Source: Hymenobacter sp. GOD-10R (GTDB lineage Bacteria > Bacteroidota > Bacteroidia > Cytophagales > Hymenobacteraceae). Taken from it: a DNA stretch of 64,000 nt. Every line of letters begins with the position of its first letter. Within the stretch, counting starts at the first letter, position 1. The translations under genes were made by a program, and so were the position numbers. Location: assembly GCF_035609205.1 (NCBI RefSeq), contig NZ_CP141184.1:3190501-3254500 (forward strand). Reading direction: 5' to 3'. Below, one piece after another: positions 18,198 through 27,180 of this stretch. The notes beneath the pieces are model-generated. The model was not told the origin of the DNA. It saw only the letters and a list, made by a program, of their open reading frames with translations, and did not search any database.

Positions 18198-19103
18198 TTA
18201 GAAACATTGGAGCACTTGCCACACTGCCCCAAAATCGCGTTGCGCTAGCGCCTCGCGGGGTATCCAAAAATACAGGCGACCTAGGTCTTCCCACATCATG
18301 TTGGCTTCGGCTTCGTGGCTGTCGAGTTGCAACAGCAGTTCCCATTCGGTAGTGGCGGCCTGCTTGAGCTCTTCCACCTGCTCGTCGCTGATACCTAGCT
18401 TCTGCTGCGTCTCTTGTAAGCCCTGCGTGCTGCCGTGGTACAGGCCGCGCGTGACGAGGGCACACTGCGCCCGCATGGGGTTTTGGATAACATCGGGGTT
18501 GCCCAGCAGGCGACTGGTACCATCTCCGTGGCGGTGCAACAGCCGCCAGTAGCCTTCGTGCTGCTCCTCGCTTAGCTCTTCTTCGGTAATACCAACTTCG
18601 TCTTCCCAGGGGTTGGGGAAAGTCATTTCGGCGGCAAACGAAAGGGCCACCTCCGGGAAAGCTGTGTAGTCCTCTAGCGACAAATCGGCGGGGAGCAGAC
18701 GCGGCGCCAACACCGCGTCCGGACCATGATACTGCACCACCGCTCGGCCCCGATTAGCGGGGTCGTAGCCCCAGGGCTGCTCTTGTGCATCGTAGAAAAA
18801 CGACAGCCACCCAGCCGACGGCAGCACCGCGGCAGCCGGGTAAATAGCTAGCTCGGCTAGGTTCAATTGAACCAGAAAGCTCAACGACCGGCCCTGCCAA
18901 GTAGGCCAGCCAACCGCGGCGGGCAAATCGGGAACACCGCCTAGACGCGAAGCGCCCAGGGGCAACGGTGCGGCGGCCAGAGCAGGCGACACCCGAATGC
19001 TCGGGCGGCAGTACGGCGCCAAACGGGGCCAAAAGGTACCTAGGCCTTCGGCCTCGGCAGCCGCTTGCAGGTCGTCTAGGGTTTGTGGGGGGAGGCTCGT
19101 CAT
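18198..19103 (-). CDS. YwqG/DUF1963 family protein
   Basis: A 301-residue cytoplasmic protein. DUF1963 signatures are clear: S-R-L-G-G-V-P-D-L-P-A-A-V-G-W-P, S-F-L-V-Q-L-N-L-A-E-L, L-P-S-A-G-W-L-S-F-F-Y-D-A, then W-E-L-L-L-Q-L-D-S and F-W-I-P-R-E-A-L near the C-terminus. YwqG proteins are uncharacterised; some occur in toxin-immunity loci. Its ATG (19103-19101) overlaps the TGA (19102-19100) of the DUF4132 gene, so it is translationally coupled and is the last gene of the SWIM-DUF6493-Ubl-DUF4132 cluster. Confidence 0.88.
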   Translation of the reverse strand: MTSLPPQTLDDLQAAAEAEGLGTFWPRLAPYCRPSIRVSPALAAAPLPLGASRLGGVPDLPAAVGWPTWQGRSLSFLVQLNLAELAIYPAAAVLPSAGWLSFFYDAQEQPWGYDPANRGRAVVQYHGPDAVLAPRLLPADLSLEDYTAFPEVALSFAAEMTFPNPWEDEVGITEEELSEEQHEGYWRLLHRHGDGTSRLLGNPDVIQNPMRAQCALVTRGLYHGSTQGLQETQQKLGISDEQVEELKQAATTEWELLLQLDSHEAEANMMWEDLGRLYFWIPREALAQRDFGAVWQVLQCF

Positions 19104-21589
19104 AGCTGGCGCAGAATAGTTTCGTCGGTAATCTTGTCGTCGTCCATCAGCAGCAGGGCCTTGCTCAGGATGATGGATAGCACGGCGTCGCCTTCGAAGG
19201 GCAGGAATACGTCGTGGGCGCCCATGTTCTTGCTAGAGCGGTCGGGCACAATGCACAGGTACTGGTCGTTGGGCTCCATCAGGATGTTGCCCGAACCTAG
19301 GTGAATCTTGTAGGTGCGCCGCTTGCCCCGCACCACCAAGAAGTTGCCTTTGATCTCGCTGACGCGGCCAATTTTCAGGCGCGGCACTAGGCGCTCCAGC
19401 ACCAACTTGCGGCTCTTGGCCACTTCGCCTAGCTCACCGAAGCTGTAGCTTTCCCAGTAGTTGCGGAATTGGGCTAGGCCGCCGTTGTCGCGCCACTGTG
19501 GGTCGTTGCCCACCGAGGCCACCCCCACGAACAGGTCCACGTCGCGCATCACCTCCGAAAAGGCCAGCGGCGGTACCTCGGGCAACGGCACCGGCTGGCC
19601 GTCGCGGGTAATGCGTACCTGATCGGTGCTGACGTAGTTGTAGATACCGGTGTCGTTCCACTCGCCGTCGGCGTATACCTCGCTCACCCAGTACTCGGCT
19701 TGCAGGTTGTGGCTAGGTAGTGCTAGGCTCGCTATTTCGGAATCGTAGCCCTTGTCGTAGGCGCCAAGCAAACTGTAGCGCCAGCCGCGCAACTTCGCTA
19801 AACTGTTGAACTGATGCTGCTTGAGAATATGCGCGGCCATACGGTTGGAGTAGGTGCGCGTGCGTTCCTCCGGCGGGGTGAGCAAATACACCTCCCGAAA
19901 CGCCTGCTTGAGCGGTTGGCGAAGTTGGTGGGCTTCGAGCAATTGGCGCCAGGCTAATACCTCTTCCATCGAAGCTAGCACGGGGTGCCAGAGCTGCGCC
20001 TGCGTGTCGGGGCTAGGTAGTGGCACGGGCTGCCCGTGCGCATCACGCCATTGCTCGTCGAGCCAGAGCGCATCGTGGTGGGAGCTGTCGGGCTGGTGCA
20101 GGCGCCAGATGAGCGGACGAGCGAGGAGGCTCATCAAGCCGTGTTGGAAGTAGTACTGCTCGAACCACGTCCACGGAATGCGCCGTTCGTCCACGAAGCT
20201 GCGGTCGAGCCGGTCGCGTTGGGCAGCGTAGGTTTGCTGGGCTTGCGTCTGGGCCGCTTTCAGCTCTTTCAGTTCGTCGGCGTGCGTGGCTTTGAGGGCA
20301 GCGGGGACGCTTTTGAGCGCTTTGCTGGTCTTCTGCCACTGCACGTCGGCCTTACCATCGGTGAGGGTAAGTGTGGCGGTGTACTCACCAAATACCTCTT
20401 CCAAGCGGCCGTTTTTCAGCCCGAAGTCGGGCGCGGCCATGTCCTCGATTTCGGCGGGCGTGACACCTAGCTTTTGCGACTCCTCGGCGATGTAGCGCGC
20501 AATCAGCTCCTGAGTGTTGGTCTGCCGGATTTTGGAGCGCACCCGCGCCAGCGCCGCCACGCCCGGCAGCCCGTTCTGCGACAAGACCAGCAGGCAGGCG
20601 TTACCTAGCCCCGCCGCCAGTGGTCCTTTGCCCGGAATCTTGCGGTAGCACTTGGCGGCTAGTGCGGCTATAGATTGCAGCAGCAGTTCGTTAACCAGTG
20701 GCTGTATGGTCCACAGTAAGCCTTTAACGGTATTTAAGCTTGACTCCTGCAGAAACAGGTATTCGGTATGTGTGTACGTGTAATTGGGGTAGTTATAAGT
20801 CCGCTCTGTAGCCTCAACCGGTACACTCAACAACACTTGTAGCCACTCCTGAACTCTCGGGCCGAGTTGCTCCACTCCTATAGCGGCTGCCGCAACGTCG
20901 AGTGTTTTTTGGTACTTGGCGCTAGGCCGTGTTCCGCTCGCTTTTTGCCAGAGTTGCAACAGCGTCAGCCAAGAGTGGGTGAGAGAGTCGGCTTGATCCA
21001 ACTTGCCCACAAATTGATTCAGGTGCCGGCCGAAAGGATCAGCTTCGCTAAAAACGACCGTCGGCAGTATTTCAAGTCCCGCACCTTGCTGCAAAATCTC
21101 CTGAATCTTAACGCGTGCTTTGGCGACCTCTTTCAGGTCTGTCGTCGCAACATTTGTGTACTCCAAGAGCTGCAATAAGTAGTCTTGCAGCAGCTTCCCC
21201 AAGCTTTGCTTTTTCGTAAGCTTAGCCACCTGAATCAAGGTAAGACCAACAGGGTATCCCCAAAAGGCCATTCGTCGGGCCTCATAATCAATGATGTCAA
21301 ACTCTAATCCGTATAGGCGAAATAAGTGCACGTACTCTTCTTGGCTAAGCTTGGGAGTACCACGCATCAGGTTAGTGAGAAGCTCACCTACGGTATACCG
21401 AGTGCTGTAATCTTGTCGTTGCACACATTCGCGCATCATGGTTGCTAGCGCAAGGACAAGGCGTCCTTGGTAACGAGAATCAGCTTTCCGCACGCTTTGG
21501 TACGCGGGTAAGTCGCCGACCTTGACCCCGTAAGGTTTGGCTATGACGACTTCTATTAATTGCTGTAGAATAGGTTGAAGATCAACCAT
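19100..21589 (-). CDS. DUF4132 (MolR/YehI-like) protein
   Basis: About 829 residues from ATG 21589. The open frame extends to 21748, but that would overlap the beta-grasp gene. The C-terminal 270 residues match DUF4132: L-R-Q-P-L-K-Q-A-F-R-E-V-Y-L-L-T-P-P-E-E, then S-N-R-M-A-A-H-I-L, L-R-G-W-R-Y-S, and a late V-D-L-F-V-G-V-A-S-V-G-N-D-P-Q-W. A coiled coil of Ala/Gln/Lys (about 440-480) precedes this domain, and the N-terminal half is helical. DUF4132 proteins include E. coli YehI, encoded with SWIM, MoxR and VWA proteins. The 5' third of the gene (20700-21600) is clearly poorer in GC than the rest, suggesting mosaicism. It is coupled to YwqG by an ATGA overlap. Confidence 0.8.
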   Translation of the reverse strand: MVDLQPILQQLIEVVIAKPYGVKVGDLPAYQSVRKADSRYQGRLVLALATMMRECVQRQDYSTRYTVGELLTNLMRGTPKLSQEEYVHLFRLYGLEFDIIDYEARRMAFWGYPVGLTLIQVAKLTKKQSLGKLLQDYLLQLLEYTNVATTDLKEVAKARVKIQEILQQGAGLEILPTVVFSEADPFGRHLNQFVGKLDQADSLTHSWLTLLQLWQKASGTRPSAKYQKTLDVAAAAIGVEQLGPRVQEWLQVLLSVPVEATERTYNYPNYTYTHTEYLFLQESSLNTVKGLLWTIQPLVNELLLQSIAALAAKCYRKIPGKGPLAAGLGNACLLVLSQNGLPGVAALARVRSKIRQTNTQELIARYIAEESQKLGVTPAEIEDMAAPDFGLKNGRLEEVFGEYTATLTLTDGKADVQWQKTSKALKSVPAALKATHADELKELKAAQTQAQQTYAAQRDRLDRSFVDERRIPWTWFEQYYFQHGLMSLLARPLIWRLHQPDSSHHDALWLDEQWRDAHGQPVPLPSPDTQAQLWHPVLASMEEVLAWRQLLEAHQLRQPLKQAFREVYLLTPPEERTRTYSNRMAAHILKQHQFNSLAKLRGWRYSLLGAYDKGYDSEIASLALPSHNLQAEYWVSEVYADGEWNDTGIYNYVSTDQVRITRDGQPVPLPEVPPLAFSEVMRDVDLFVGVASVGNDPQWRDNGGLAQFRNYWESYSFGELGEVAKSRKLVLERLVPRLKIGRVSEIKGNFLVVRGKRRTYKIHLGSGNILMEPNDQYLCIVPDRSSKNMGAHDVFLPFEGDAVLSIILSKALLLMDDDKITDETILRQL

Positions 21590-21687
21590 TTCAACATCTA
21601 AAGCATCGAATAAGCTAATAACAAGTGGGTTCAAACTATGGATTGCTATAAGTGAAGGAATTGTACCAAAGCAGACATTCTCCGGCC

Positions 21688-22080
21688 TCAACCGCCCACC
21701 AGTGGCGTCAGCTTCACGAAGCTGGCCGTAGCACCCGTGCCGAGCCATACTTCCTCATCCAAACTCTCCACCTGCCGGTCGTTCACCAACACAAAAAAAC
21801 CATTCTGCTCAAAGGCCTCCAGCGCCCGGTACACCTGTTGCTCCGCGTCGATCTGCTTGGCCGAGCGCACCCGGTAGCCGTTCAGCACCCGCTCCGAATC
21901 AGTAGGCTGCACTAGCCCGTGGAAGGTGTCGCTCTGGCGCTGGTTGTAAGCAGCTACTTCGTCGTGCACACGATGGGTAATCAACTCGCGTACGGTGAGC
22001 ATTTCTTGGTTTATTTCCAGCTCTAGCCGGCTAATGATACTGCCGGTGGCGGTTTCGTCGAGGATGGTGAGTAGGGGCAT
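21688..22080 (-). CDS. Beta-grasp (ubiquitin/ThiS/MoaD-like) protein ending in Gly-Gly
   Basis: A 130-residue protein; ATG 22080 is preferred over TTG 22086. It opens with a hydrophobic strand (P-L-L-T-I-L-D-E-T-A-T-G), a second strand L-E-L-E-I, and a helix typical of this fold (L-T-V-R-E-L-I-x-x-R-V). After an insertion, residues 95-130 read F-F-V-L-V-N-D-R-Q-V, L-D-E-E-V-W-L, S-F-V-K-L-T-P-L-V-G-G, stop. The V-N-x-x-x-V ... D-E-V ... P-(L/V)-x-G-G layout is what MoaD, ThiS and Ub-like carriers show, and the protein ends exactly at Gly-Gly. It lies between DUF6493 and DUF4132 genes on the same strand. No E1, E2 or JAB gene is in the window. The fold call is inference from pattern. Confidence 0.65.
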   Translation of the reverse strand: MPLLTILDETATGSIISRLELEINQEMLTVRELITHRVHDEVAAYNQRQSDTFHGLVQPTDSERVLNGYRVRSAKQIDAEQQVYRALEAFEQNGFFVLVNDRQVESLDEEVWLGTGATASFVKLTPLVGG

Positions 22081-22265: not shown

Positions 22266-25200
22266 CTACTTTAGCAATGCGCCGGCTGCCTTTTTCAAGC
22301 TGTCTACGCTCTGCCACTCGCGTAGGCGGGTTTGTACCGCTTCCGGTATCGAACGGCGCACCCGCTTCGAGGTATCAGCGTAGGTATCAAGCAGCTTAGC
22401 CGTGTTGCGCAAGGGCGCGACGGGCAGCTGCGGCAGTAGCGCTTCGAGGGCCTGGCACAACGCGTCGTCGGTGCGGAGGCTGATGGCGCGCACCTGAGCC
22501 AACCCGTCGGTGAGGCGGGCCAAAGGAGCACGACCCGTTGCTACCAAACGCCCGAGGGCGCGACCTAGGTCGGCGGGCACTAAGCGGCCGGTGTCGGTGG
22601 CGCTTAGCAAAACTTCCAGCGCCATGGCACGCACGGTGGGGGCCTGGTGCACCAAGCCAGCGGCCAGCAGCGTCGAGGTACCAACGGCGTGGTGTGGCCC
22701 CGTGCCTAGCAGCCCGGCCAAGGAGCGCTGCATGGTGTCGCGGACTTCGGAGCCCGCCTCGTCGGTGCGGCAGCACGTACGCAGCACGTGCCAGTGCAAC
22801 GGCTCGGGGTTGTTCGGTAACAGCGCCACAGTAGTCGGCACGTAGAAGTGCAACGTCCAGGCATACATATCAATGCGTTCAGAAAGACCAGCGTAAGCGG
22901 CGTAGGGGAGCAGGGGAGGAGCCGGTCGGGTGGCGGGCGTAACGGGCACCAGCAGCTCGACGTGCTTATCGGTGACGGTAGGCTTGCCTTTCTCCCAAGT
23001 GCGCACATACGTGAGGCCAATTTCGGCTAGCGTCCAGCCTGGCTGCCAGGGCCGAGCTAGGCCCGGAAGCTCGCCCAGCGCTGCCAGCGCGGGTAGCTCG
23101 GCGGTGGGGTAGCGGGTGCGAGCGGCCACGGCCCACAGCCAAGGCAGGGCCTCAGTCAGGTCGATGGGGATGATCTGCTCCGTTTCACTCTTGATAGGAA
23201 TAAGCTTACCTAGCTTTTCCTTGGCTCGCTGCAACAAGCTAACGCCAGCCGTCAGACTCGTGGTAGTAGTAGCTAACCAAGCTGGTAGCTCAGCAGCGTG
23301 AGGCGGTGCAGAGGCAGGCACGGGTACCGGCACCGCATCGAGGGGCGTGGTGGTGCGGGTAGAGGAAGTGCCGTAGTGCCTTATCTGCTCCGTTTGTGGC
23401 GCGGCTGGTGCACTAGCGCAGGTTTCCGCTGTGGTGATGGGAAGTGGCGCGCCTTCTTCAACAGGAGCTAGCAGCCAGGTTAGCAACTCGCGCAGGTCGG
23501 CGTTGTGCAATTCAGGCAGGTGGGCGCGGGCTTGGGCGGCATCGTCGGGGTTCGACCACGCGCAACGGGCTAGGGCCACCACTAAGTCGGCGGCATCGGG
23601 GGTTTCGTCGGCGGCTTGGTAGGCTAGCAGCTTCTGCACCAACACGCTAGGGGCTACCCAATGCGGCTCGTGAGTGGCAGTGCTCAGCAAGGGTAGGGGC
23701 GTGGCACCGGGGCGCAGACGGGCCTCAGCAGCAGCCAAACGGCGCTGCTCCAAATACAGCAGCGGATCAGGCTTTTGGTACTCATTAGGACACAGATTGA
23801 CGCGTGCTACCTGCGGCTGCTCGAAGGTATTAATCAGGCCAATTACCAATGCCGTCAGCAAATCGACAGGCCCTTTCCGGCCAGTACCCTGAAAGTTGCG
23901 CATAATCGCTTCTGCCTCGGCCGGCGTTTTGTTCGACGTAAGCCAGCTCAGCACCTGCTTGATATAAGGTTGTAGCTGGGTGGCGTGGTCGGGGGGTAAG
24001 TGCGGGCGCAGGCGGAGCAACCCATCCACCCAGCGGTCCACGACCACGGGGTTGTCGGCCGCCAATAATGGACCCGTTAGGAACAGCAATTCGTGCCAAT
24101 CGGCTACGGGCGCTAGCACATTGGCAGAGCTAAGGTCGGGCACGAAGTGCGTGAGTGGCGCGTAGCCGGCATCGGGTGCGGTTTCGACCTCGGTCGTAGC
24201 AGGCGCCGTGAGCCAAGGCGCTAGGCGGGTGCCGGCCGCTGGAGTTAGCAGGTCAGCGTAGGCAGTTAAGGTGGCGGTGATTTCTGCTGTTTCGTCTTCG
24301 GAAAGTAGCGGTTTTTTAGCACCCAGCACCGTGGCCAGCAAGCGGGCGGCACGGTCCTGCACGCCCGCATCGGCGTGGGACAGGGCGGCAGTGGCTAGGC
24401 GAGCTAGGGCAGGAGCAGAAGTTGGTTGCGGCTTCAACAGCTTCTCAAAACCCGCTAGTAGCGTTTTGATACCCGTTTTCAGATCCGGCCGCGTCATGAG
24501 GCCGTCGGCGTATTGTAGGAGCGGAGCTAGGTCGAAACCTGGTTCTTCCCACAGCTCTTTTAGCTGCTCGATGGCAAAGTTTACCACCACTGGTAGGGGG
24601 TGGGCTAGCAGTTCTACTAGCTCGTTTTGCCGGGCTAGGCGTTCGGCTAGGGTAGGTTTCAATTCCGCAAATACGTCCTTAAACCAGCCTAGCAACGGCC
24701 GTTTGAAGTCGCGCCGCAAGGCCAGCAGACTACGCGTGAGCAGCTCGTTGCGGTCAAGATCACCCGCGGCACTTAGCTTAGTCAGCAGGGTTTTCCACCC
24801 GATTGAAATGCCATCCGGGTACGGACCGATGTAGGTGCTGTCGTAGTTGACATTGGTTTCGTAGTCGAACAGCAGCCATAAGTCGCGGCCCAGCAGCTCG
24901 GGGTCGGCCCGCAAGTCCCTGAGTACGAAATCTTCTACTTCCTGCGGGGTGAATTTGCGCTTGCTCTCTTGGCCGCGGTCGTAACGCGAAAGTCGATTGC
25001 CGAGCAGTTGGGCGAAGGTTGGCGCGTCATAGTTAATAAGGCCTTCGCGCTCTAAGGCCCGCAGCTCAGCGTAGTCGGGCGCCTGCCACAGGTTGGTGCG
25101 GGTGGCAAGGGCTAGCATGTCGCCCAGCCAATCGGGCCGGAAGTGGCGCAGCACCTGCCAATGTAGGTCGTAGTGCTGGCGGTTATCGAGCTGGTTGCGC

Positions 25201-25490
25201 AGGCTCCAGGGTAGCTCGAAGCTGCGGGCTAGGCCTTCCTTGCGCGTAAACGTAGCTAGCCCTGACATGGCCAGCATGGCTTGCTGTTCGCTGGTCAGCA
25301 GGCGCTCGTAGTGCGTACGCCCCTTTTTGTCTTCTACCGGGCGATATTCCTCGAGGCGCTTTTTGAGATGCTGCGTGAGGCGGCGCAGGGTCATAGCTTC
25401 CTTTTTATCGAGGCTTATTAGGAAGGGTACCAGCTCTTTGGCGGTTTGGTGTAGGATAATGTGCTCGAACGTTTCGGCAGCAGTAGACAT
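22266..25490 (-). CDS. Very large DUF6493-like helical protein
   Basis: About 1,074 residues from ATG 25490. The N-terminal 250 residues (M-S-T-A-A-E-T-F-E-H-I-I, then R-L-T-Q-H-L-K-K-R-L-E-E-Y, and V-N-Y-D-S-T-Y-I-G-P-Y-P-D-G) resemble proteins labelled DUF6493 in Bacteroidota, from memory. The middle (about 250-650) is a HEAT/ARM-like alpha solenoid with many L-L and A-A helices. A Pro/Thr/Ala-rich linker lies near 720-770, and a second helical region fills the C-terminus. No catalytic motif is seen, so a scaffold is likely. It sits between the SWIM gene (103 bases upstream) and the beta-grasp gene, all on one strand. Confidence 0.75.
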   Translation of the reverse strand: MSTAAETFEHIILHQTAKELVPFLISLDKKEAMTLRRLTQHLKKRLEEYRPVEDKKGRTHYERLLTSEQQAMLAMSGLATFTRKEGLARSFELPWSLRNQLDNRQHYDLHWQVLRHFRPDWLGDMLALATRTNLWQAPDYAELRALEREGLINYDAPTFAQLLGNRLSRYDRGQESKRKFTPQEVEDFVLRDLRADPELLGRDLWLLFDYETNVNYDSTYIGPYPDGISIGWKTLLTKLSAAGDLDRNELLTRSLLALRRDFKRPLLGWFKDVFAELKPTLAERLARQNELVELLAHPLPVVVNFAIEQLKELWEEPGFDLAPLLQYADGLMTRPDLKTGIKTLLAGFEKLLKPQPTSAPALARLATAALSHADAGVQDRAARLLATVLGAKKPLLSEDETAEITATLTAYADLLTPAAGTRLAPWLTAPATTEVETAPDAGYAPLTHFVPDLSSANVLAPVADWHELLFLTGPLLAADNPVVVDRWVDGLLRLRPHLPPDHATQLQPYIKQVLSWLTSNKTPAEAEAIMRNFQGTGRKGPVDLLTALVIGLINTFEQPQVARVNLCPNEYQKPDPLLYLEQRRLAAAEARLRPGATPLPLLSTATHEPHWVAPSVLVQKLLAYQAADETPDAADLVVALARCAWSNPDDAAQARAHLPELHNADLRELLTWLLAPVEEGAPLPITTAETCASAPAAPQTEQIRHYGTSSTRTTTPLDAVPVPVPASAPPHAAELPAWLATTTTSLTAGVSLLQRAKEKLGKLIPIKSETEQIIPIDLTEALPWLWAVAARTRYPTAELPALAALGELPGLARPWQPGWTLAEIGLTYVRTWEKGKPTVTDKHVELLVPVTPATRPAPPLLPYAAYAGLSERIDMYAWTLHFYVPTTVALLPNNPEPLHWHVLRTCCRTDEAGSEVRDTMQRSLAGLLGTGPHHAVGTSTLLAAGLVHQAPTVRAMALEVLLSATDTGRLVPADLGRALGRLVATGRAPLARLTDGLAQVRAISLRTDDALCQALEALLPQLPVAPLRNTAKLLDTYADTSKRVRRSIPEAVQTRLREWQSVDSLKKAAGALLK

Positions 25491-25592
25491 AGGCAAGCGG
25501 GAGTATCGTACTGTGTATAAAAGCTAGGAAAAACGTGTTGGCGTCCGCAGTAACAACTGGCTGACGCCGCAGGTATCGGGCTGGCTAGCGGC

Positions 25593-26933
25593 CTACCCAA
25601 ACCGCAGTTGCGCGGCCAAGATGTGCTTACACGGGCCGCGCTGGCCTTGGTGGCTGGAGTACCACTGGCAAGTGCAGCGGGCCGGCTCAGCCCCACCTAG
25701 CACCACGGTATGCCACACATCGGTACCGCGTACGCGCACCTCGGTGCGACCTCCGGCGCCCACGCCCACCAACTGCACATCGTCGGCCTCGGCGAGCAGG
25801 GCACGAGCGTTTTTTAGGCGCGGGTTCAGGCTGAGGATGCGCTCGGTTTTGAAGGGCAAGCGGCGGTAGAAGTATTCGTTTTCGCGCAGGTCGAAACCAA
25901 GCAGACCTAGGGCCGAGAGGTGGGCACACAGCCGCGTTACGGTGGCCGGGCTTAAGTCGTGCGTTAGGCCGAATAGGGTAGGGTTGAAGGTTTCGTTGCT
26001 GTGAAAGAGGTTGTTGGCGCCCGCCAGCCACTCGGCAGGCAATTCCTCCGCCAGCGTTTCGAGCTGGGTGCCCTCGCCCGAAAAGCCCCGGTTTACTTCG
26101 GCCGACAAGGCCAGCAGAAACTCTTGGCCTCCACCTAGAGTCAGCAGCATGGCACTGGCTTGGCCGTCGGGGGTGGCGTATACGCGCACGGTTTCACCCA
26201 GGGGCAATAAGCCTTCGAGTAGGCGCAAGCGGTGCGCGCCGCCTACGCGCACGGCCCCGGCGGCCGCTACCGGCGCGAAGGTGGGTCGCCCGCCGCGCAG
26301 CACGAGGTACGTATCGGTGCGGGAAGTGCCGGCGGGGAGTGAATGCAGTAGTTGCGTAGCCTGCACGCGACTCATGGTCAGGCGTTCCTCCATGCGCGAG
26401 AGGTAGTCTTGAGCGGCTGTTAGGCCGCGCAACCAGCGCTCCGGCAGCGTCACTTTGCGCTCGGTAACGTGACCGGCCGCGCGCTCCAAGGTCACTTCCT
26501 GCTGTCCCACGCTCAGGCGCACCGGCTCGGTGCGGCTAATGCGGCTGAGCGCATTAATCATGGGCTCGTTGAAATCGACGTTGGTGGTACCGCTCTGCAC
26601 AAACTCGCCGTCGAGCGCCGCCGGACCTAGGTCGAGGCGGGCGTACACGCCGTTGCACGACGAAAAAGCCTCAAAGCGCAATCGTCCCGCGCCCGCCGTC
26701 ACGATGGGGTCGCGCAGGGCGGCGCTCTGCGGTACGAAGCGCGAGGCCACTACTTTGGCTAATGTGGTTAGCCCACGGGCGGTCAGCCAAGGGTCGCGCA
26801 ACTGTCCGCGAAAAAAGCAGGCGGCGCCCGCAGTGGGGGTGTTTTCGGCGTAAGCTGCCAAGAGCAGCGCGTCGCCTTCCGGGCGGCGGGTCAGGGCCGA
26901 GGACTGGGCGTAGGTGTAAGCAAAGTCAGTCAT
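25593..26933 (-). CDS. SWIM zinc-finger protein
   Basis: About 446 residues from ATG 26933. The C-terminal 30 residues carry the SWIM zinc finger C-x-C-x(n)-C-x-H (C-T-C-Q-W-Y-S-S-H, then G-P-C-K-H-I-L-A-A). The large N-terminal part (about 1-400) resembles proteins of the YehQ type that accompany DUF4132, MoxR and VWA genes; it includes D-F-N-E-P-M-I-N-A-L and W-L-x-G-x-x-x-L-F. SWIM fingers bind nucleic acid or protein, and in some eukaryotic proteins support ubiquitin transfer. It is the first gene of the minus-strand cluster and carries the probable promoter in 26934-27180. Confidence 0.85.
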   Translation of the reverse strand: MTDFAYTYAQSSALTRRPEGDALLLAAYAENTPTAGAACFFRGQLRDPWLTARGLTTLAKVVASRFVPQSAALRDPIVTAGAGRLRFEAFSSCNGVYARLDLGPAALDGEFVQSGTTNVDFNEPMINALSRISRTEPVRLSVGQQEVTLERAAGHVTERKVTLPERWLRGLTAAQDYLSRMEERLTMSRVQATQLLHSLPAGTSRTDTYLVLRGGRPTFAPVAAAGAVRVGGAHRLRLLEGLLPLGETVRVYATPDGQASAMLLTLGGGQEFLLALSAEVNRGFSGEGTQLETLAEELPAEWLAGANNLFHSNETFNPTLFGLTHDLSPATVTRLCAHLSALGLLGFDLRENEYFYRRLPFKTERILSLNPRLKNARALLAEADDVQLVGVGAGGRTEVRVRGTDVWHTVVLGGAEPARCTCQWYSSHQGQRGPCKHILAAQLRFG

Positions 26934-27180
26934 AGGGGCACGCGGAGAAGAGTGAATACTGGTTGTCACCAGCTACCAGGTACGTTATTTACACACTGCA
27001 AGTATGCAACTAAGTTAATGTATTTACTAACTTTTTTAGCTAAAAGTTTTACTAATTTATTTGGCTTGTGATTTTAGCAACAAGCGCCGCGCTACGTCAA
27101 CGTAGATTTCGGATTAGTACAAAATCACAGCCTTGGGCTGCGACAGGTTTAAAACAGGCTGCGCTACTTAGCAAGAACGG

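Follow-up and report, generated by a model that had tools for sequence, protein, structure and literature searches.

A family of small ubiquitin-like proteins encoded beside DUF4132-DUF7737 genes points to an unstudied bacterial ubiquitin-like system

A short gene at positions 21688 to 22080 of a 64,000-nucleotide stretch of Hymenobacter sp. GOD-10R (contig NZ_CP141184.1; the whole stretch is referred to as the window) encodes a 130-amino acid (aa) ubiquitin-like protein, to which we gave the working name SMALL. It has a predicted ubiquitin-like fold, ends exactly in Gly-Gly, and is encoded beside a DUF4132-DUF7737 protein, hereafter the partner; in some relatives, a gene for a ThiF/MoeB-type activating enzyme (E1) follows. 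Because these features come together, the overall picture points to an unstudied ubiquitin-like system. In the reading that we prefer, with a probability of roughly 0.5, SMALL would be charged by an E1 and act as a ubiquitin-like subunit within a DUF4132 machine, and its tail would be used with the partner, covalent joining being favoured. Below, L-numbers denote collected locus stretches and G-numbers denote genomes, G000 being the window's own (7.5 Mb).

Results

SMALL is predicted to be a free-standing beta-grasp protein

The features of the pair in the window are as follows.

21688..22080, minus strand: SMALL, 130 aa, start codon ATG at 22080, stop codon TGA at 21688-21690; the protein ends F-V-K-L-T-P-L-V-G-G
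21691..21711, minus strand: codons of the conserved C-terminal tail L-T-P-L-V-G-G, the Gly-Gly codons being GGC GGT at 21691-21696
19100..21748, minus strand: partner gene (DUF4132-DUF7737), mechanical open reading frame of 882 aa
19781..20323, minus strand: DUF4132 domain of the partner, residues 476-656 (PF13569, E 9.3e-40)
19103..19420, minus strand: DUF7737 domain of the partner, residues 777-882 (PF24879, E 2.1e-39)

The initial annotation had described a 130-residue frame here with an exactly terminal Gly-Gly and the motifs VNDRQV, LDEEVWL and TVREL. All of this was found in the translation, and the frame lies on the minus strand, which that annotation did not state; the plus strand of the SMALL stretch contains internal stops. 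The true start of the partner is probably further in than that of the mechanical frame, because the partners of many relatives begin right behind the SMALL stop codon.

The AlphaFold model of SMALL shows a beta-grasp, with a two-strand hairpin, a helix and further strands packed as in ubiquitin and MoaD, and with an insertion near residues 50-78. In structure comparison, MoaD was closest and ubiquitin-like domains came next. SMALL is thus predicted to be a free-standing beta-grasp (MoaD/ubiquitin-like) protein, and the MoaD-like fold with an insertion proposed in the initial annotation is backed by the model. A link to MoaD or ubiquitin through a search of Protein Data Bank (PDB) sequences was tried and rejected (two matches, best E 0.38, both unrelated); the Deinococcus SMALL gave no MoaD or ubiquitin relative among PDB sequences and one unrelated match at 1.9.

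No Pfam, NCBIfam or PADLOC model recognises SMALL, in keeping with the earlier suggestion of a new family. In Pfam, the window's SMALL matched zero families at E<=1 and likewise at E<=10, and PF02597 (MoaD/ThiS) is absent from the four weak families matched by any of 10 diverse members. A role as the housekeeping MoaD or ThiS was ruled out, since the window's genome has two separate PF02597 genes. A phage origin was rejected, as there was no match in a collection of 50,697 phage records.

The terminal Gly-Gly is conserved across four phyla and replaced in one clade

A single-sequence search with SMALL gave 2947 proteins at E<=0.001, counting that of the window, and a four-sequence SMALL profile matched 7000 of 8000 scored candidates. 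Among the matches listed, which are the best 120 of each search, 152 of 153 distinct Gly-Gly-type proteins (again including the window's own) end in GG and one ends in GV. A more distant branch gave 1544 matches in a separate search, and the best 120 of these all end in YW. All six members from the plasmid collection, which come from Nonomuraea (49% identity), Novosphingobium (33%) and Deinococcus (four), were read to the stop and end in GG. The records NZ_LT559118.1 (11.85 Mb) and NZ_CP134663.1 (4.9 Mb) are filed as plasmids; their size suggests chromosomes. A Bacteroides member ends LSGRLW.

The tails of 68 fetched SMALL copies comprised 48 GG, 16 G-x-[YL]-W, 2 GGW, one GV (L130) and one frameshifted copy (L178, 6177-6545), the SMALL of an E1 cassette interrupted in the assembly. 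Copies with an exactly terminal Gly-Gly span Bacteroidota, Deinococcota, Actinomycetota and Pseudomonadota, and the 18 copies with G-x-[YL]-W or GGW tails form a single Bacteroidota clade. The initial annotation had regarded homologues without the Gly-Gly as evidence against its proposal. Such homologues exist, in the 18 copies of this sister clade, and the terminal Gly-Gly stands in most relatives seen (48/68).

In 22 copies less than 70% identical, the mean entropy was 0.60 bits over the last ten columns vs 1.83 over all columns, and L-x-x-L-x-G-G was invariant; the set was drawn from GG-ending rows, so that the final GG is invariant by construction. Judged by sequence, the terminal Gly-Gly of the family is not chance. 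The idea that its codons conceal a ribosome-binding site for the following gene was ruled out by the codon spread: the family uses each of the four Gly codons and 13 codon pairs, and GGAGG or AGGAG occurs within the last nine bases of just 12 of 47 SMALL genes. Two related copies (L175:7264-7743 and L176:7496-8002) end LAGGW, that is, Gly-Gly and then one Trp, which may mark a processing site or an intermediate between the two types of tail.

To follow the history of the tail, a partner tree was built from 48 C-terminal halves (midpoint root, some long branches, Hymenobacter reduced to 5 rows). The YW plus GGW clade was supported at 99/96, and Deinococcus, with GG and a long partner, was its sister (100/99 for the whole). 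Every other SMALL-bearing branch is GG, and the tail requires two changes on this tree. For these reasons, the aromatic tail is probably derived and Gly-Gly the older state. In 9 YW loci, SMALL lies behind the partner and not ahead of it. Both systems occur together in G1223, as L166 (YW, long partner) and L177 (GG, shorter partner).

SMALL and the DUF4132-DUF7737 gene form the constant unit

The same three profiles were run on a uniform table of 76 stretches (the window and 75 loci), chosen by a match to SMALL, DUF7737 or the partner; L012 and L049 are the same place. The stretches are of unequal length, so neighbour counts are lower bounds. SMALL was present in 68 of the 76, and the partner was visible in 66 of these. 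In all 66, the two genes lay on one strand within 1.7 kb, with one other gene between them in L053. The partner of L161 is visible as a 470-base frame only, that of L061 is split over frames, and L179 and L138 lie at contig ends with no usable partner.

At the genome level, SMALL was found in 38 and DUF7737 in 40 of 120 Hymenobacter genomes, the 38 all being within the 40; in the two DUF7737 genomes without SMALL, the open frames are only short, at 120 and 130 aa. Across the class, DUF7737 occurred in 13 of 395 genomes, and all eight genomes new in that search have a GG-ending SMALL adjoining the partner. SMALL and partner distances correlated with r 0.93 over 60 loci (0/2000 permutations as high) and with r 0.66 over 18 diverse Gly-Gly loci (1/2000 as high), multi-partner loci and L130 being set aside; shared species history contributes to this correlation.

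DUF4132 and DUF7737 domains were found in the partners of the window and of L051, L054, L069, L070 and L071. The long partners scanned (L054, L071) have DUF5724 in addition, the order in D. radiodurans being DUF5724-DUF4132-DUF7737. We take such DUF4132/DUF5724 loci to be what is called MolR-like. In alignments of 45 rows and 36 rows, partner residues invariant in both tail types include H159, Q182, Q186, R189, E190, Y192, R306, D309 and H387. A PDB sequence search for the identity of the partner gave nothing useful (one match at E 1.1; none in a second search).

Other neighbours in the window are optional.

22266..25496, minus strand: DUF6493-DUF7824-DUF7825 protein, upstream; in 7/26 Hymenobacter stretches with SMALL
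25593..26969, minus strand: SWIM zinc-finger protein, upstream; in 6/26 of these stretches
18198..19103, minus strand: DUF1963 protein, downstream, overlapping the partner gene end; in 3/26 of these stretches

The SWIM protein matches the PADLOC model SWIM_XIII (4.4e-59). Neither SWIM nor DUF6493 occurred beside SMALL outside Hymenobacter. Since these two are sporadic and the partner is constant, the unit is SMALL plus the DUF4132-DUF7737 gene. The SWIM/DUF4132 locus of the initial annotation therefore does not hold as such, and SWIM was ruled out as a core component by its 6/26 occurrence, a lower bound.

Several loci have distinctive surroundings. The Hymenobacter genome G493, with five DUF7737 matches, has three tandem partner genes behind one SMALL (L131:4366-12826), a partner copy without SMALL in its stretch (L129) and the sole GV-ending SMALL. 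In Bacteroides finegoldii (L079:5239-6993), a rhomboid protease gene ends 7 bases ahead of SMALL. The Gly-Gly locus at L173:766-7690 lies behind a type I specificity subunit, PDC-M62A/B-like genes and a PD-(D/E)XK nuclease, surroundings that look like a defence island, and at L177:11138-11767 the partner gene and a reverse-transcriptase-like gene (best PADLOC match RT_UG17) are arranged tail to tail. A Bacteroidota-type promoter motif had no perfect match across the whole window, which is not informative.

Many Bacteroidota have a ThiF/MoeB-type E1 gene directly behind the partner gene

A PF00899 (ThiF) search of 22 SMALL genomes gave matches touching the partner gene in six. In the uniform table, a ThiF/MoeB-type E1 gene lies directly behind the partner gene in 10 of 17 non-Hymenobacter Bacteroidota Gly-Gly loci with a visible partner (L051, L121, L122, L125, L126, L128, L169, L174, L178, L180), an arrangement that is new here. 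Measured from the stop codon ahead of them, the E1 frames share 4 to 97 bases with the end of the partner. No E1 was found beside any of the 18 YW/GGW loci in the table (10/17 vs 0/17, Fisher p 0.0003, relatedness not removed; L161 is left out of this test, and L178 is counted for E1, not for tail). The window's own locus has no E1, and the E1 genes of G000 sit elsewhere in the genome.

All ten cassette E1s keep G.GGLG, N..RQ, K, D..D and R, plus a cysteine aligned with the ThiF catalytic cysteine. The L051 E1 matched E. coli ThiF best (3.7e-37). Trees and an NCBIfam scan covered the six cassette E1s other than those of L169, L174, L178 and L180. The six matched the MoeB/ThiF models, yet stayed under every listed cut-off. 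A tree of 28 E1s placed 16 of its 22 non-cassette rows in a supported clade (98/97) to which none of the six belongs; a second tree was built without the long branch HK_L147. That the six are one clade was neither supported nor rejected (approximately unbiased test, p 0.27).

Three genomes with an E1 cassette (G606, G618, G716) had no PF02597 match. Outside the cassette, PF00899 gives them partial matches (frames of 754, 785 and 754 aa), and G618 and G716 have one more match each within a distant group outside the MoeB/ThiF clade, which we take to be TcdA, so to our reading none of the three has a second E1 placeable with MoeB/ThiF. Two further cassette genomes (G1222, G864) likewise had no PF02597 match; the genome-wide ThiF search covered the first three of these five. 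SMALL is therefore the only visible ubiquitin-like substrate for the cassette E1 in these genomes. In G198, of the YW clade, there was neither a ThiF nor a PF02597 match at E<=0.001.

Searches for further components of a ubiquitin-like pathway gave little. JAB (PF14464) had 7 matches in 23 genomes, none near a SMALL locus; this search covered six of the ten E1 genomes, those other than G1042, G1222, G1012 and G864. No E2 (conjugating enzyme) family occurred among the selected neighbours scanned with Pfam. As the scanned cassette neighbours also differ from one another, the cassette appears to be of two or three genes. Two of the E1 cassettes have neighbours (L051:8891-9973 and L121:8814-10262) that encode a YhcG/DUF1016 nuclease and an RtcB RNA ligase. 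In G000, outside the window (G000:C2:23063-24163), a 769-aa frame with ThiF and JAB matches is apparently a different E1-JAB fusion.

These data bear on an alternative, in which SMALL is a sulfur carrier: the E1 would thiocarboxylate its Gly-Gly, and the sulfur would pass to a DUF4132-DUF7737 synthase, as with MoaD-MoaE and ThiS-ThiG. The set of ubiquitin-like protein, large partner and E1 resembles MoaD-MoaE-MoeB in shape, the best structural match of SMALL is a MoaD, the cassette E1 is ThiF-like, and the lack of JAB nearby and of E2 among the neighbours scanned fits as well; the D. radiodurans homologue described below also binds the thioredoxin Trx1 (PMC9650054). On the other hand, no rhodanese, cysteine desulfurase or other sulfur gene was seen among the neighbours scanned, and a tail that serves as the partner's substrate is hard to reconcile with the YW clade, which has no Gly-Gly and keeps the partner with its invariant residues. 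For this last reason, covalent joining is somewhat likelier than sulfur donation, which we consider rather unlikely.

The probable Deinococcus radiodurans member is linked to stress responses

The D. radiodurans SMALL and partner are very probably DR_A0165 and DR_A0166, because L071 has the same gene order of thioredoxin, small gene and DUF4132; its small protein ends LAGG. DR_A0165 is listed among the targets of DdrO, the motif lying at -83, and mitomycin C raises tagged DRA0166 in wild type but not without irrE (PMC8533742). The operator is disputed, as the text of PMC9650054 reports no such motif. According to the latter paper, H2O2 and gamma rays raise DR_A0165 (SEP068184), the knockout is more resistant to H2O2, and the complemented, overexpressing strain is less resistant. 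The authors' own model of DR_A0165 resembles MOCS2 (a MoaD) and SAMP1, and the words glycine, conjugat and ubiquitin are absent from the main text (0 matches). DR_A0165 was published there as a Deinococcus-only stress peptide, a status contradicted by the homologues in other phyla found in our searches.

A second alternative is that SMALL is a structural or regulatory subunit whose tail just inserts into the partner, the Gly-Gly serving for packing and the E1 for another purpose. The fixed pairing with the partner and the optional E1 would fit this, as would a whole clade with aromatic tails, of which G198 lacks any ThiF or ThiS/MoaD match at the above threshold. DR_A0165 tagged at either end pulls down a shared 157 proteins (PMC9650054), and binders shared in this way suggest non-covalent binding. 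Against it stand the exactly terminal Gly-Gly in copies of four phyla, the motif-intact E1 as third gene in 10 loci, and at least 5 E1 loci in genomes without a ThiS/MoaD match (G606, G618, G716, G1222, G864). We regard this alternative as quite unlikely.

Discussion

In the preferred reading, SMALL would serve the neighbouring DUF4132-DUF7737 protein as its dedicated subunit. In Gly-Gly lineages, a ThiF/MoeB-type E1 would adenylate its C-terminal glycine; in many Bacteroidota this would be the E1 encoded third in the cassette, and elsewhere, Hymenobacter included, the chromosomal MoeB/ThiF may do the charging. The charged tail would then be used with the partner, most likely by joining SMALL covalently to the partner or to a partner-presented target. 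As in SAMP/Urm1-type systems, this would involve neither a dedicated E2 nor a deubiquitinase. In the Bacteroidota clade with no adjacent E1, an aromatic tail would stand in for Gly-Gly and docking would be non-covalent. We infer the order of events and the biological role, the probable D. radiodurans member pointing to the DNA-damage and oxidative-stress response. The observations themselves extend to the predicted fold, the way the tail types are distributed over the tree, the fixed pairing with the partner gene, and the E1 cassette with its motif residues.

Several results weigh against this reading, among them the lack of JAB genes near SMALL in the 23 genomes searched, the lack of E2 genes among the neighbours scanned, and the binders shared by both tagged forms of DR_A0165. 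The beta-grasp assignment is built on a single predicted model, with which Foldseek gave no match at E<=0.001, and sequence searches with SMALL yield no MoaD or ubiquitin relative. An adjacent E1 is absent from 7 of the 17 non-Hymenobacter Bacteroidota Gly-Gly loci, from all 26 Hymenobacter stretches (L138 being cut inside the partner) and from all 6 Deinococcus, Nonomuraea and Novosphingobium stretches. Eight of the 76 stretches have a partner without an adjacent SMALL (L078, L080, L081, L129, L132, L133, L139, L209), including those of Acetobacter, Burkholderia, a second Nonomuraea copy and E. coli; the partner can thus exist without an adjacent SMALL. Residues of the partner are kept without change in the YW clade as well as in three loci that lack SMALL, so the partner works without a Gly-Gly tail there. 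To our knowledge, no SMALL conjugate, thioester or thiocarboxylate has been described.

The fold class and the E1 class are of known kinds. Like MoaD/MOCS2A and ThiS, the window's SMALL has Gly-Gly exactly at its C-terminal end; it differs in its length of 130 aa with an insertion, in having no PF02597 match, and in its gene partner, which is a DUF4132-DUF7737 gene rather than MoaE or ThiG. The six cassette E1s tested are likewise set apart from MoeB/ThiF by the NCBIfam cut-offs. SAMP1 and Urm1 are E2-less ubiquitin-like modifiers. SMALL shares with them a single ubiquitin-like domain, a MoeB-like E1 and no dedicated E2 seen; it differs in its fixed gene pairing with one large partner, and conjugation is hypothetical for SMALL. 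BilABCD also encodes a ubiquitin-like protein and an E1 within one bacterial operon; there, BilA has two ubiquitin domains, BilB is an E2, BilC is a JAB peptidase and the E1 has a Cys domain (PMC11354881), whereas SMALL cassettes show a single-domain E1 only. With CBASS Cap2/Cap3, SMALL would share bacterial E1-type chemistry on a C-terminal glycine, which for SMALL is a prediction; in CBASS, the cGAS-like enzyme is itself conjugated and Cap2 is an E1/E2 (PMC10097602).

The combination of SMALL with DUF4132-DUF7737, in which no JAB was found and no E2 seen, is not among the operon classes compared from the 2006 survey of prokaryotic ubiquitin-like systems, in which 'molr' has 0 matches (PMC1779556). 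A full-text literature search, which largely leaves out subscription papers and preprints, found no paper on it.

In its fullest form, which we hold tentatively and at somewhat less than even odds, the reading is of a new ubiquitin-like system that spans four phyla (Bacteroidota, Deinococcota, Actinomycetota and Pseudomonadota). Its beta-grasp protein would be charged by an E1, with neither E2 nor deubiquitinase taking part, and would either become attached to a DUF4132-DUF7737 machine or be delivered by it; in Deinococcus, the system would serve the DNA-damage and oxidative-stress response, and one Bacteroidota clade would have exchanged the covalent Gly-Gly for an aromatic anchor, with no E1.

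The large and unexplained DUF4132 family thereby gains a conserved small partner and, in part of its tree, a candidate enzyme chemistry. The published Deinococcus-only stress peptide, with its knockout phenotype, becomes a probable member of a multi-phylum ubiquitin-like family. The aromatic-tail sister clade, without an adjacent E1, offers a natural experiment in which a carrier-type ubiquitin-like protein may become a plain subunit.
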